Positions 1,435 through 38,400 of a stretch of 64,000 nucleotides of DNA are shown in pieces (positions within the stretch are counted from its first letter, which is position 1; each line of letters opens with the position of its first letter). The stretch comes from Sphingomonas naasensis (GTDB lineage Bacteria; Pseudomonadota; Alphaproteobacteria; Sphingomonadales; Sphingomonadaceae), in NCBI RefSeq assembly GCF_004792695.1, contig NZ_SRXU01000002.1, positions 1 through 64,000 of the forward strand. The letters are read 5' to 3'. The notes beneath the pieces were generated by a model that had not been told where the DNA came from, did no database searches, and saw only the letters and a list, made by a program, of their open reading frames with translations. The position numbers were made by a program, and so were the translations under genes.

Positions 1435-2528
1435 TCCGCCGCCTGTTGCATTCGTGCATAGCGCAACGGCAGTGCCAGCTGCACCGCGAAGCCGCGCCCT
1501 TTCGCCTGCGCCTCGACGCTCGCCTGCGCGCCGTAGAAGGCGGCGAGACGCTTGCGCACATTGTCCAGCCCCAATCCGGTCCCCGTCGCGGGGGCCAGCC
1601 CGACGCCCTGGCGCCCGCTGTCCTCGACGACGAGGCGCAACGTGCCCTGCGCGGCGCTCGCGCGCACCGACAGCAGCACCGGCTTGCGCGACGGCGCGAC
1701 TGCATATTTGACCGAATTCTCGACCAGCGGCTGGAGCAGGAAGCTCGGCACCCACGCGCCGAGCAGCTCGGCGGGGCATTCGAACTCGGTCTTCAGCCGG
1801 TCGCCAAAGCGCACCGCCTCGATCTCGAGATAGGATTGGGTGTTGCCGAGCTCCTCATCGAGCATCACCTCGGCATCGGGGTCGGCCTCGAGCGAGAGCC
1901 GCAGGAACTCGGAGAGCTTCATCGTCATCCGCTCCGCCTCCTCGTTGCGGCGCGTGACGATCAGCGACGAGATCGCGTTGAGCGTGTTGAACAGGAAATG
2001 CGGATTGAGCTGGAAGCGCAGCGCCGCGAGCTGGGCCTGCTGGGTGGCGTGACGCGCCTCGACCAGCCGCCGCTCGCTCTCGCGCACCGTCATCTCGCTC
2101 AGCATCAGCCCCAGCGCGGTGGCGTAGAGCCCATAGATCAGCACGAACGGCATCAGCCCGCGATAGAAGATTTCGATCAGCGGTGTCGGCGGCAGGCGCA
2201 GCTCGACATTGATCGCGGCGATCGATTGCGCGTCGATGAAGCCGTGGAGCAGCGCGATGCCGATCGCCGCCACCGCCGCCACCGCGACCATCGCCTGGCG
2301 CGGCAGGCGGCGGCAGAGCCCGATCGCCGCTGCCAGCACCGCCGAGAACACCATGCCGAGCACGAAGGTCTCGATGAGCAGCCTCTTGTACGGCCACGGA
2401 AACACGGTTCCCGAGACGAGATCGCGCGCGCACCACAGCAGCAGCGCCACCGCCCAGAGCAAGACGGTGAGCAGGGCCGCGATCAGGAATTCGCGGCGCC
2501 GGAATTGTTCGGGGACGATGCTGCGCAC
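1431..2528 (-). CDS. LytS-like sensor histidine kinase (His_kinase family)
   Basis: A 365-residue membrane sensor kinase. There are four hydrophobic segments at about residues 15-33, 50-71, 79-98 and 125-145, with no large periplasmic or cytoplasmic sensor domain. The internal His_kinase region follows, with phosphoacceptor His177 in QLNPHFLFNTLN. The ATPase domain has the N-box Asn271 in PLVENSVKYA and the glycine box GTGLGLDNV near 316. This architecture is typical of LytS/AlgZ-type kinases paired with LytTR regulators, and the regulator gene follows with an ATGA overlap. The short transmembrane sensor suggests that it detects a membrane-related signal; this is inference. Confidence 0.92.
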   Translation of the reverse strand: MRSIVPEQFRRREFLIAALLTVLLWAVALLLWCARDLVSGTVFPWPYKRLLIETFVLGMVFSAVLAAAIGLCRRLPRQAMVAVAAVAAIGIALLHGFIDAQSIAAINVELRLPPTPLIEIFYRGLMPFVLIYGLYATALGLMLSEMTVRESERRLVEARHATQQAQLAALRFQLNPHFLFNTLNAISSLIVTRRNEEAERMTMKLSEFLRLSLEADPDAEVMLDEELGNTQSYLEIEAVRFGDRLKTEFECPAELLGAWVPSFLLQPLVENSVKYAVAPSRKPVLLSVRASAAQGTLRLVVEDSGRQGVGLAPATGTGLGLDNVRKRLAAFYGAQASVEAQAKGRGFAVQLALPLRYARMQQAAE

Positions 2529-2644
2529 GCGGTCACCCTAGCATGCGCGCCGATGCGCGCCGACCGTCTTCGTCGCACGCTGGTCGACTTTGGTCGCTGC
2601 GACCGTGATGCCGGTCGATTGGTCAGGCCATTTCCGCGCGCGGT

Positions 2645-3415
2645 TCAGACCGAGCCGATCTTGAGCCGCCGCGCCACGCTGTCGCGCCGCGCGTCGATCT
2701 CGCTGCGGGTCCGCTCGAGCGCCTCGAGCTCGGTCGCCTCGAGCAGATCGTCGACCACGCCGCGCAGATGCTTGCGCATCGCGCTGCGCGCCGCATGCGG
2801 ATCGCGCGCCCTGAGCGCCGCGACGATCGGGCGATGCTCCTCGACGCGCGGGGTGATCCCGCCGCGCTTCGCCCGCGCGAACATGTTCGCGGCGAGCGGC
2901 GATCGGGTGCGCAGATCCCACAGATACTCGATCACGCTGCGCACCGCCTCGTTCCCGGTCGCGTCGGCGATGGCGAGGTGGAAGCGCCGGTCGGCGTCCA
3001 TCACCGAAGGCTCGTTCGAATCGTCGGCGCCCATCTCGATCAGCAATTGGTCGATCTCGGCGAGCTGCTCGTCGCTGATCGATACCGCGGCGAGCGCCAC
3101 CGCCTCGCCTTCGAACAGGATGCGCGCCTCGGTCAGGTCGAACGCGCCGACGTCGAAATTGAGCGAATCCTCGCGCTGCCCGCTGCCGTGCTCGCGCTTG
3201 GTGACGTAGAGCCCCGAGCCGTGCCGCGCCTCGATCCAGCCCTTCATCTCGAGCGCGATCATCGCCTCGCGGATCGTCGGCCGGCTGACCTTATATTCCT
3301 CGGCGAGGTCGCGCTCGCCCGGCAGGCGGGTCCCCGGAGACCAGCGCCCCGCCTCGATTGCCGCGGTGATCGACGCCGCCACGCGTTGATAGAGCTTGTT
3401 GCCCGTGATCTTCAT
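2645..3415 (-). CDS. FadR-subfamily GntR transcriptional regulator
   Basis: A 256-residue regulator. The N-terminal winged helix-turn-helix covers about residues 8-75 and carries the GntR signatures LPGERDLAEEYKVSRPTIREA and HGSGLYVTK. The C-terminal all-helical FCD ligand domain follows, with a putative metal site in DADRRFHLAI and further His residues. I start at the ATG at 3415; an in-frame upstream extension to 3481 would run over the divergent promoter. The gene is divergent from manD with 86 bp between them, so a uronate or hexonate-type ligand such as mannonate is a reasonable inference, by analogy with UxuR/ExuR, which are in the same subfamily. Confidence 0.9.
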   Translation of the reverse strand: MKITGNKLYQRVAASITAAIEAGRWSPGTRLPGERDLAEEYKVSRPTIREAMIALEMKGWIEARHGSGLYVTKREHGSGQREDSLNFDVGAFDLTEARILFEGEAVALAAVSISDEQLAEIDQLLIEMGADDSNEPSVMDADRRFHLAIADATGNEAVRSVIEYLWDLRTRSPLAANMFARAKRGGITPRVEEHRPIVAALRARDPHAARSAMRKHLRGVVDDLLEATELEALERTRSEIDARRDSVARRLKIGSV

Positions 3416-36825: not shown

Positions 36826-37647
36826 TCACTTGTTGCGGAGCGCGCCGGCGACCAGCTTGTGCAGCTTCGAATGCAGCACGTCGTTCGCGGCGAGGAACTG
36901 GTTGCGCTCGCGCGGCATATCCTGCCCGCGGAAATCGGTGACGAAGCCGCCGGCTTCCTTGACCAGCAGCATCCCCGCCGCGACGTCCCACGGCTTGAGG
37001 TGCGATTCCCAATAGCCGTCGAACCGCCCCGCGGCGACCCAGGCGAGATCGAGCGCCGCCGCGCCGAGCCGGCGGATGCCGGCAACCTCGGGCGCCACCG
37101 CGCCGAAGATCCGGCTCCATTCGACGAAATCGCCATGGCCGAGGAACGGAATGCCCGTAGCGATCAGCGCGTCGGCGAGGTCACGCCGCGCCGAGACGCG
37201 CAGGCGCTGGCCCTGCAGCCACGCGCCCCTGCCCTTTTCGGCCCAGAAGCTCTCGTCGGTGAGCGGCTGATAGATATAGCCATGCGTCACCTCGGGCTTG
37301 CCCTGCGCGCCGTTGGGATCCTCGACTGCGATCGACATGCAGAAATGCGGGATGCCGTGGAGGAAGTTGCTGGTGCCGTCGAGCGGATCGATGATCCAGC
37401 GCGGCTTGCCCGGATCGCCCGCGATCTCGCCGCGCTCCTCGACGAGGAAGCCCCAATCGGGCCGCGCCTTTTGCAGTTCCTCGATCAGCGTGTCCTCGGC
37501 GCGCTTGTCGGCGAGGCTGACGAAGTCGGCCGGGCCCTTGCGGCTCACCTGGAGGTGCTGGACCTCGTTGAAGTCGCGCCGCAGCCGCGGCCCGGCCTTG
37601 CGGACGGCGCGCTCGATGACGGTGATGATGCCGGAATGGGAAACCAA
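36826..37647 (-). CDS. Inositol monophosphatase (SuhB-like) family protein
   Basis: A 273-residue metal-dependent phosphatase of the IMPase/FIG superfamily. Metal motifs: Glu in FLVEERGE, the WIIDPLDGTSNFLHG signature (Asp-x-x-Asp-Gly-Thr) and the C-terminal LKPWDVAAGMLLVKEAGG. Family members dephosphorylate inositol-1-phosphate and related sugars or nucleotides; the E. coli SuhB also acts on antitermination. The start is TTG 37647 with GGAG seven bases upstream; the longer frame begins in the repeat. The gene is alone between two palindromic elements. Confidence 0.9.
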   Translation of the reverse strand: MVSHSGIITVIERAVRKAGPRLRRDFNEVQHLQVSRKGPADFVSLADKRAEDTLIEELQKARPDWGFLVEERGEIAGDPGKPRWIIDPLDGTSNFLHGIPHFCMSIAVEDPNGAQGKPEVTHGYIYQPLTDESFWAEKGRGAWLQGQRLRVSARRDLADALIATGIPFLGHGDFVEWSRIFGAVAPEVAGIRRLGAAALDLAWVAAGRFDGYWESHLKPWDVAAGMLLVKEAGGFVTDFRGQDMPRERNQFLAANDVLHSKLHKLVAGALRNK

Positions 37648-37662
37648 GATACTGCTCCAAAA

Positions 37663-37834
37663 CCCCTCTCCCAATGGGAGAGAGTCAGGGGGGCGGTCAT
37701 GCTCCCGGCATGACCTGAATAACGCGGGGCGTTATTCACCCCGTAACTGGGCCCATCGCGTCAGCGATGGGAGGGTGCGGGTCGAGGGCAGTCCGATACC
37801 GCCCTCACCCAACCCTCTCCCACGGGGAGAGGGC
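37663..37834. repeat. Composite element of five hairpins between the IMPase and efp genes
   Basis: Five consecutive stems: CCTCTCC/GGGAGAG (37664-37683); TCATGC-N5-GCATGA (37697-37713); GAATAACGC-N3-GCGTTATTC (37717-37737); CCCATCGC-N4-GCGATGGG (37752-37771); and CCCTCTCC/GGAGAGGG (37814-37834). The outer two are similar, forming an inverted pair around the other three. The outer unit resembles those at 62168-62300. Confidence 0.82.
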
Positions 37835-37836
37835 TT

Positions 37837-38400
37837 TTAGTCCGCGCGGCGGACGTAGGTCTGTTCGTAAACATCGACGACGATGCGGGTTCCCGAGGCG
37901 ATGTGCGGCGGGACCATCACGCGGACGCCGTTCTCGAGCAGCGCGGGCTTGTACGACGACGACGCCGTCTGGCCCTTCACCACTGCATCGGCCTCGACGA
38001 TCGTGGCTTCGATCGTGTCGGGCAGCTGCACCGAGATCGCCTCTTCGTCGTAGAGCTCCATCACCACGTCCATGCCGTCCTGCAGGAACGCCGCGGCGTC
38101 GCCGAGCAGATCGCGCGGCAGCGTGGTCTGGTCATAGGTGTCCTTGTCCATGAACACGAGGTTCTCGCCCTCGGCGAACAGGAATTGGAAGTCCTTGGTG
38201 TCGAGGCGCACGCGCTCGACCGTCTCCGCCGAGCGGAAGCGGACATTGTTCTTGCGGCCGTCGCGCAGATTCTTGAGCTCGACCTGCATATAGGCACCAC
38301 CCTTGCCCGGCTGGGTGTGCTGAATCTTCACGGCGCGCCAGATGCCGCCTTCATATTCGATGATGTTGCCGGGACGGATGTCCACGCCGCTGATCTTCAT
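37837..38400 (-). CDS. efp: Translation elongation factor P
   Basis: A 187-residue ribosome factor that relieves stalling at polyproline stretches. It has the KOW-like domain I with the tip loop TQPGKGGAY; Lys33 is at the position modified in other EF-Ps. Domain II/III and the C-terminal signature [14 protein letters not shown] are present. No modification enzyme gene is next to it. The start is ATG 38400. Its polyproline target could include the NuoC tail in this window (inference). Confidence 0.96.

Follow-up and report, generated by a model that had tools for sequence, protein, structure and literature searches.

A three-way-junction cassette nested in REP-like palindromic repeats of Sphingomonas and related genera

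Results

A string of palindromes fills the gap behind efp

In the window, i.e. the whole stretch of 64,000 nucleotides of Sphingomonas naasensis DNA that was analysed, efp and a gene of the inositol monophosphatase (IMPase) family are separated by a gap that is almost filled by a palindrome string of 172 nt (37663-37834; Table 1). A sequence-only reading had described five hairpin-forming inverted repeats at this place, and all of them were found there. It had given the perfect inner stems as 6, 9 and 8 bp; the stems exist, but their perfect arms measure 8, 10 and 8. Its view that the two outer stems are alike held, the units being 89% identical, and so did its view that the inner stems are mutually unrelated. 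Tandem duplication of one hairpin was accordingly dropped as an explanation.

Folding on both strands, which the same reading had proposed, gave strong structures either way. The energies are -109.1 (plus strand) and -114.0 (minus strand) kcal/mol for RNA (z -8.1 and -9.3), and -59.3 and -60.7 kcal/mol for DNA (z -8.6 and -8.7). GC-rich DNA such as that of this region often contains short palindromes, but a chance cluster can be excluded because none of 200 shuffles folded as well in any of the four folds; it was already refuted by the existence of a homologous multi-copy family, and we give it practically no credence. Long-range pairing between the outer arms (37659-37685 with 37812-37838, 85%) is present in each of the four minimum-energy folds, and only the inner three hairpins form locally. 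There is thus more pairing than the five hairpins: this long-range stem, a pair of 25-nt arms, and a closing stem that joins the first two inner hairpins and makes of them, in the minimum-energy structures, a three-way junction.

Table 1. Genes, inverted repeats and structural elements of the efp–IMPase gap (window positions)
Feature	Position	Strand	Remarks
Inositol monophosphatase family gene	36826..37647	-	downstream neighbour, same strand; TTG start at 37647 inferred
Left outer palindrome, repeat arm beside the cassette	37663..37682	-	CTCTCCC ATT GGGAGAG on the minus strand; from empty-site comparison
Left outer inverted repeat	37666-37673/37675-37682		8-nt arms
Three-way-junction cassette, 66 nt	37683..37748	-	AGTTACGGGG...CCCTGACT on the minus strand; covariance model R1 matches 37684-37747
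Cassette closing stem, one side	37683..37693		pairs with 37739-37748; imperfect in the window copy
Cassette hairpin A	37695..37715	-	GGTCATGC ... GCATGACC, loop GGG
Inner inverted repeat 1	37695-37702/37708-37715		8 bp
Cassette hairpin B	37716..37738	-	TGAATAACGC CCC GCGTTATTCA; stem differs among copies
Inner inverted repeat 2	37716-37725/37729-37738		10 bp
Cassette closing stem, other side	37739..37748		pairs with 37683-37693
Accessory hairpin H, TCCC-stem-GGGCCC	37749..37772	-	stem changes on both sides between orthologous copies
Inner inverted repeat 3	37752-37759/37764-37771		8 bp
Inner stem of the repeat pair	37768..37822		arms 37768-37792 / 37798-37822, 72% complementary
Intact outer REP or intrastrand-triplex-like unit	37802..37833	-	CCCTCTCCC-CGT-GGGAGAGGG-TT-GGGTGAGGG on the minus strand
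Right outer inverted repeat	37813-37821/37825-37833		9 bp
efp, elongation factor P	37837..38400	-	upstream neighbour, same direction

The outer frame is an inverted pair of REP-like repeats

The outer two palindromes are an inverted pair of C/G-rich repeats of the REP or intrastrand-triplex-like kind (CCCTCTCCC / GGGAGAGGG / GGGTGAGGG). Read on the minus strand, which is the direction of the genes, the order begins with the intact outer unit, the inner stem of the pair with its loop, and the accessory hairpin H (TCCCATCGCTGACGCGATGGGCCC); it continues with the cassette, which runs from AGTTACGGGG through hairpins B and A to CCCTGACT, and ends on the second outer palindrome. The five palindromes are therefore not one unit: a cassette is nested inside a palindromic repeat. 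Two inverted REPs able to pair into a hairpin, which define a REPIN, are present in the window (37659-37685 with 37812-37838), and REP-like palindromes are plentiful in the same genome (55 matches per strand to CTCTCCCNNNNGGGAGAG with at most 2 mismatches, vs 5 for the reversed control). The stem CCCTCNCCC N3-6 GGGNGAGGG that characterises the TMECO motif occurs at 37813-37833, the one match in 64 kb, and in none of 100 shuffles; the second G-rich strand GGGNGAGGG that TMECO has after N3 is absent from this unit, where GGGTGAGGG follows after 2 nt (TT). On the plus strand the outer unit reads as a hairpin followed by CTTTTA, and it is the only terminator-like site within 37400-38100.

The cassette keeps its pairing while its stems vary

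Covariation among homologues, the lack of which would have counted against the sequence-only reading, is present. In an alignment of 30 cassette copies (26 distinct rows), 97.5% of 731 cells are paired, a value that drops to 27-40% when the partners are slid, and two-sided change affects 17 of the 29 pairs. The covariation score is 0.402, vs 0.160 in shuffles and 0.04-0.10 with slid partners; further pair types (32) do not exceed those of shuffles (mean 29.9; 78 of 500 as high). The cassette thus has the conserved covarying structure by which structured non-coding RNAs are recognised. In a set of 57 distinct rows (1596 cells), 268 cells show two-sided changes vs 18 one-sided and 25 unpaired, inherited changes being counted many times in these figures. 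The CCC loop of hairpin B is constant across the 30 copies, and four of the nine pairs of hairpin A are invariant in this alignment, more of them varying in a larger set. By a simple parse, 52 of 67 copies combine CCCCG in hairpin B with CGGGG in hairpin A. The two loops, CCC and GGG, and those parts of hairpin A that are conserved may hint at a binding partner. The closing stem varies in sequence between copies yet stays paired, which leaves the cassette without the conserved terminal inverted repeats of a classical MITE.

Distribution across genomes

The search for the whole 172-bp unit suggested by the sequence-only reading found it once in its own genome, where only parts recur: a second copy of a 52-bp inner part lies at C4:23008 (85%), and C12:78325 matches the outer unit over 24 bp. 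A DNA search within the order matched some part in 35 of 61 genomes, own genome included. The covariance model R1 matches 112 of 151 genomes of the genus, with up to 33 matches in one genome; 45 of 298 genomes in the family, in 22 of 96 genera (own genus included, with 6 of the 45); and 3 of 385 in the class, two of them same-genus and one weak. At most 35 (genus), 17 (family) and 13 (class) candidates were scored per genome, with stricter filters, so the numbers for each genome are minimum values; in the other direction, some copies are scored on both strands. The class search says little on the rest of the order, because, outside the genus, it included only three genomes of the family, none of which matched. 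Later counts leave out the class-level outlier L101 (33.9 bits, without repeat flanks). Among the exact-pattern matches listed, at least 80, are Sphingomonas, Sphingobium, Sphingopyxis, Allosphingosinicella and some unnamed sphingomonads. A phage element was considered and dropped: the exact hairpin-A string occurs in 3 viral contigs, and in two of these, which share the same flanks, it lies in a repeat arm.

Some copies belong to larger arrangements. In the genome of the window, L105 (C16:324444) and L107 (C12:347886) have a divergent three-way cassette (about 1501-1564) at the centre of larger composite palindromes, whose frame consists of CCTCCCTCGCG...CGCGAGGGAGG-like ends and additional hairpins. 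In L077, a cassette whose closing stem is lengthened, by eye, to about 21 bp (1639-1702) adjoins another cassette (1501-1564).

One slot in the repeat arm, two orientations

Among 68 non-redundant copies with flanks, which are best-scoring matches plus hand picks and no random draw, 67 were read as standing in a repeat arm that is C- or G-rich, always at the same relative position; the exception is L101. The left side is C-rich in 48 copies, clearly G-rich in 16 and special in three; the cassette therefore sits in both orientations in the host repeat. A first count (48 C-side, 19 G-side) used the last letters of the left flank only. Upon re-inspection of the 19 G-side copies, 16 were clear, the second L077 copy proved to be flanked by the extended stem, and L105 and L107 are G-rich on the left and different on the right. 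The host repeats vary in sequence (CCCTCTCCC, CCCCTCCCC, CCCTCCCGC and others). In an exact-arm test, 35 of 67 copies had a distal arm that is complementary without mismatch over at least 10 nt, vs 79 of 1340 shuffles (5.9%), and the other 32 copies lack such an arm; a first flank-pairing test had given 29 of 67, vs 18 of 67 for the best of 10 shuffles.

The cassette alternates with four base pairs

The cassette stands where orthologous cassette-less sites have 4 bp, CTCC or CGCC. At the efp gap, the window (L001) reads GGGCCC-cassette-CTCTCCC and its relatives GGGCCC-CTCC-CTCTCCC, with CGCC in L129; the comparisons are of L001 with L129, L020, L143 and L189, and of L019 with L120. L210, a locus of another genus of the family, has flanks that match the efp gap too. 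The same kind of pair with hairpin H is found without cassette in seven relatives (L129, L143, L120, L189, L188, L169 and L020, the last also found by similarity). The absence of the inner stems between the same outer stems, which the sequence-only reading had named as evidence against its proposal, therefore does occur, for the two hairpins of the cassette. In all, the cassette is in the efp gap of 5 of 72 loci: in the 3' arm behind H in L001, L178 and L019, in the 5' arm of the efp-gap pair and in the opposite orientation in L200, and in a different repeat pair in L172. L001 is the window itself and L019 was found via its similarity to it, so that 3 of the 69 efp-drawn loci (L117-L145, L163-L202) have the cassette; a sixth, partial match (L141) lies at a locus end, away from the efp gap, and is uncounted. 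The remaining efp-gap relatives have other repeat pairs or none. Across species this gap carries several unrelated repeat pairs, and resembles a recurrent landing site.

The exchange is also seen within genes. In cobN, S. parapaucimobilis (L335, and the near-identical L397) has CATCCC-cassette-CGCC, vs CATCCC-CTCC-CGCC in L398 and L400, a net 60 bp within the annotated reading frame. In the cysteine desulfurase gene, L372-L377 have no repeat, L368 has a degenerate pair without cassette, and L336, L282 and L257 have the repeat pair and the cassette in frame. The L096/L292 and L334/L324/L314 comparisons show the 4-bp difference as well, with left flanks of only 63-64 bp. The statements on the 4-bp difference use only the named rows among 29, the others including same-site repeats, both orientations and misaligned gaps. 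The in-frame repeat pair of cobN occurs in several genomes (L335, L398, L399, L400), and the cysteine desulfurases (L336, CDS 2031-3281; L282; L257) have about 65 extra residues, in S. parapaucimobilis (two strains) and S. pseudosanguinis.

The target-site duplication of a classical MITE was not found at the cassette ends at efp and cobN, where the difference is cassette vs 4 bp. On a tree of the adjoining coding sequence, which covers the 65 of 72 efp loci with usable coding sequence and uses labels assigned by reading, the label changes 11 times, vs a shuffled mean of 11.7 (50 of 200 shuffles as low); cassette presence is therefore close to independent of descent. The composite mobile unit of the sequence-only reading is accordingly composite, with one element nested in another instead of a single unit, and its mobility is inferred from presence and absence. 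Each swap may be a gain or a loss, since the second arm could serve to restore an intact first one.

Half-steps, gene context and Rfam

In a selected RNA, G-U pairs are expected to be common and A-C rare on its strand. The cassette has 20 G-T and 10 A-C half-steps in 1596 cells (57 distinct rows), and the RNase P RNA of 30 loci of the genus has 293 and 4 in 3105 cells (Fisher p 7e-9), in a comparison where the RNase P structure is predicted from the alignment, the cassette rows were aligned by fitting them to the model of the cassette, and related rows contribute cells that depend on one another. The strand-specific tolerance of G-U over A-C expected of a structured RNA is thus lacking in the cassette (20:10 vs 293:4).

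The 87 intergenic copies were placed with a home-made caller based on a codon-position score, after dropping 32 copies near locus ends and one duplicate. Relative to the genes on both sides, 32 are in ++, 22 in --, 27 in convergent and 6 in divergent gaps; all gaps of at least 80 bp at the same loci, cassette-bearing ones included, number 427 (118 ++, 122 --, 82 convergent, 105 divergent). Copies are rarer between divergent genes (6/87 vs 105/427, p 9.5e-5) and commoner between convergent ones (27/87 vs 82/427, p 0.02), and their strand bias relative to genes is not significant (32:22, p 0.22). The two copies that the caller placed within an ORF (L257, L282) belong to one cysteine desulfurase gene, seen in two species. 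The scarcity in divergent gaps and the lack of a significant strand bias fit fold-back DNA that is tolerated behind genes.

Six cassette-bearing loci gave no Rfam match at the gathering score, and an Rfam family was dropped as a candidate. The best sub-threshold match in the window, over H and the cassette end, was to Acido-Lenti-1 (22.9 bits vs a gathering score of 37, E 0.0057). In another locus, L075, five YrlA (Y RNA-like) matches lie in a row (796-1839) around the cassette at 1501-1564, one of them above gathering (73.1 vs 69).

Y1 transposases

PF01797 (Y1 transposase), which we take to be the RAYT domain, was matched in 9 of the 41 genomes searched. It is commoner in cassette-rich genomes (7/20) than in cassette-free ones (1/18, p 0.045), and was not found in 13 of the 20 cassette-rich genomes, including those with 33, 29, 23 and 23 cassette matches. 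Cassettes can therefore be present without a resident Y1 enzyme. The genome of the window has two Y1 matches, at G000:C13:288338-290339 (L048), and by eye a truncated third copy separates them. They stand among copies of what was read as an unrelated repeat, attacggtgacagtgcactaattgacg, downstream of a region that presumably corresponds to the end of an Rhs/YD-repeat protein.

Discussion

We regard it as somewhat probable that the string is a two-level fold-back DNA repeat, in which a REP-like inverted pair carries, in place of 4 bp of one arm, a three-armed cassette of about 64 bp that travels as a hitch-hiker on such repeats. The near balance of G-T and A-C half-steps, together with the lack of a significant strand bias, favours fold-back DNA over RNA. 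The cassette would fold when it is extruded or when replication exposes it as a single strand, and in this state would pass from one repeat arm to another by copying or recombination. Gene conversion or template switching, for which the many similar arms offer partners, is the most likely route, and hairpin-templated correction would keep the stems of the cassette paired. The 4-bp difference, the unchanged flanks and the two-sided differences in the stems, with their small number of half-steps, are what one would expect, at the sequence level, from inter-arm copying with such correction. Any effect on efp is probably incidental. Several results weigh against this explanation: further pair types are no more numerous than in shuffles, about half of the copies (32/67) lack a long distal arm, Y1 genes are commoner in cassette-rich genomes, and the conserved loops and hairpin-A parts hint at a binding partner; the half-step comparison also depends on a predicted RNase P structure and on a cassette alignment fitted to its model.

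The sequence-only reading had offered, as its other option, an RNA with ordered stem-loops, which is left unsupported by half-steps near balance (unlike those of RNase P), by the occurrence of both orientations and by the lack of a significant strand bias; a single RNA gene was dropped on this evidence and on that of gene context. In the structured-RNA alternative, the cassette would be a cis-acting or small RNA with a ligand-binding three-way junction, e.g. a 3'-end element of the efp transcript. The strong covariation, the conserved loops (CCCCG of hairpin B with CGGGG of hairpin A in 52/67 copies) and the fact that at least one neighbouring gene reads towards 81 of the 87 placed intergenic copies speak for this, but with G-T and A-C at 20:10 where RNase P has 293:4, no significant preference for one strand relative to the genes (32:22, p 0.22), host repeats that contain the cassette in either orientation, six loci without an Rfam match at the gathering score and turnover at the efp gap close to random, we find it quite improbable. 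The cassette may have an added RNA role. A structure selected by the host, such as a terminator or an mRNA-protecting 3' element for which repeats are the raw material, would explain the shortage of copies between divergent genes and their excess between convergent ones (27/87 vs 82/427, p 0.02), and a terminator-like hairpin does exist on the plus strand. That site, however, is oriented opposite to the genes on both sides, removal of promoter insertions by selection would produce the position bias as well, and the efp gap has the cassette in only 5 of 72 loci (among them the window and one locus picked by similarity), its relatives carrying other repeat pairs or none, all of which makes host selection an unlikely explanation.

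In the third alternative the repeat is a REPIN that a RAYT (Y1 transposase) moves or recently moved, and the cassette is a variant form of its arm. The inverted palindromic units, the numerous intergenic copies, their presence in some relatives and absence from others, and the two Y1_Tnp matches in the genome of the window are all in line with it, and the enrichment of Y1 in cassette-rich genomes (7/20 vs 1/18, p 0.045) leans towards an enzyme. Against it, 13 of the 20 cassette-rich genomes, including those with 33, 29, 23 and 23 matches, gave no PF01797 match, and the Y1 genes of the window's own genome sit, by reading, among an unrelated repeat; we doubt that it accounts for the cassette, although Y1 may be associated with it, and a lost or an unrelated enzyme may be involved. 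The fold-back explanation has a bolder version, which we put forward tentatively: the cassette may be a parasite of a parasite, an undescribed family of structure-defined DNA cassettes that spreads among sphingomonads by swapping with a tetranucleotide in REP-like arms, is recognised by its three-way-junction shape and not by its sequence, manages in most genomes without a resident Y1 transposase and occasionally becomes protein-coding.

The outer frame is of a known kind, and the following comparisons draw on excerpts of the cited papers. Inverted pairs have been described for TMECO, a G/C-rich intrastrand-triplex motif (Holder et al. 2015, PMC4666352). The outer unit resembles it in its layout (CCCTCTCCC-N3-GGGAGAGGG-gap-GGGTGAGGG), its intergenic location and its inverted pairs, and TMECO loci are reported there to be unstable between related strains; it differs in its second gap (2 nt, TT, vs 3 nt in the TMECO consensus), in that TMECO is reported more often upstream than downstream of ORFs, and in the nested cassette, none having been met in the excerpted TMECO description (PMC4666352). 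REPINs, REP doublets and BIMEs share the inverted palindromes forming a larger hairpin, the many intergenic copies and the mosaic build, but most cassette-rich genomes tested here lack a Y1 match and one arm contains a three-way-junction insert (PMC3116915; PMC2817692). The CGTC-tagged REPs of Alphaproteobacteria are likewise palindromic dimers, apparently without a dedicated transposase in the excerpted account, but their stems of 8-9 bp with terminal CGTC and AT at the stem start were not seen by eye here (PMC3733652). REPs are also the preferred landing place of other elements, but these are insertion sequences, and the cassette, of about 64 bp and without a gene, replaces 4 bp (Tobes and Pareja 2006, PMC1525189). 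The MRSC-65-2 mobile or repeat motif is a very abundant covarying repeat that is thought to be selfish; it is a single long stem (PMC11109978). Searches of the open-licence literature of PubMed Central found neither a record of the cassette nor a 19-letter piece of its hairpin A.

These observations bear on the question of how REP-like repeats spread where no transposase is evident. The cassette family provides natural pairs of filled and empty sites with a marker that is defined in size and scored for orientation, which could separate gene conversion, template switching and transposition. Fold-back elements of this kind could be mistaken for non-coding RNAs in covariation screens, and the low excess of G-T over A-C half-steps suggests a simple test by which such screens may tell fold-back DNA from structured RNA.
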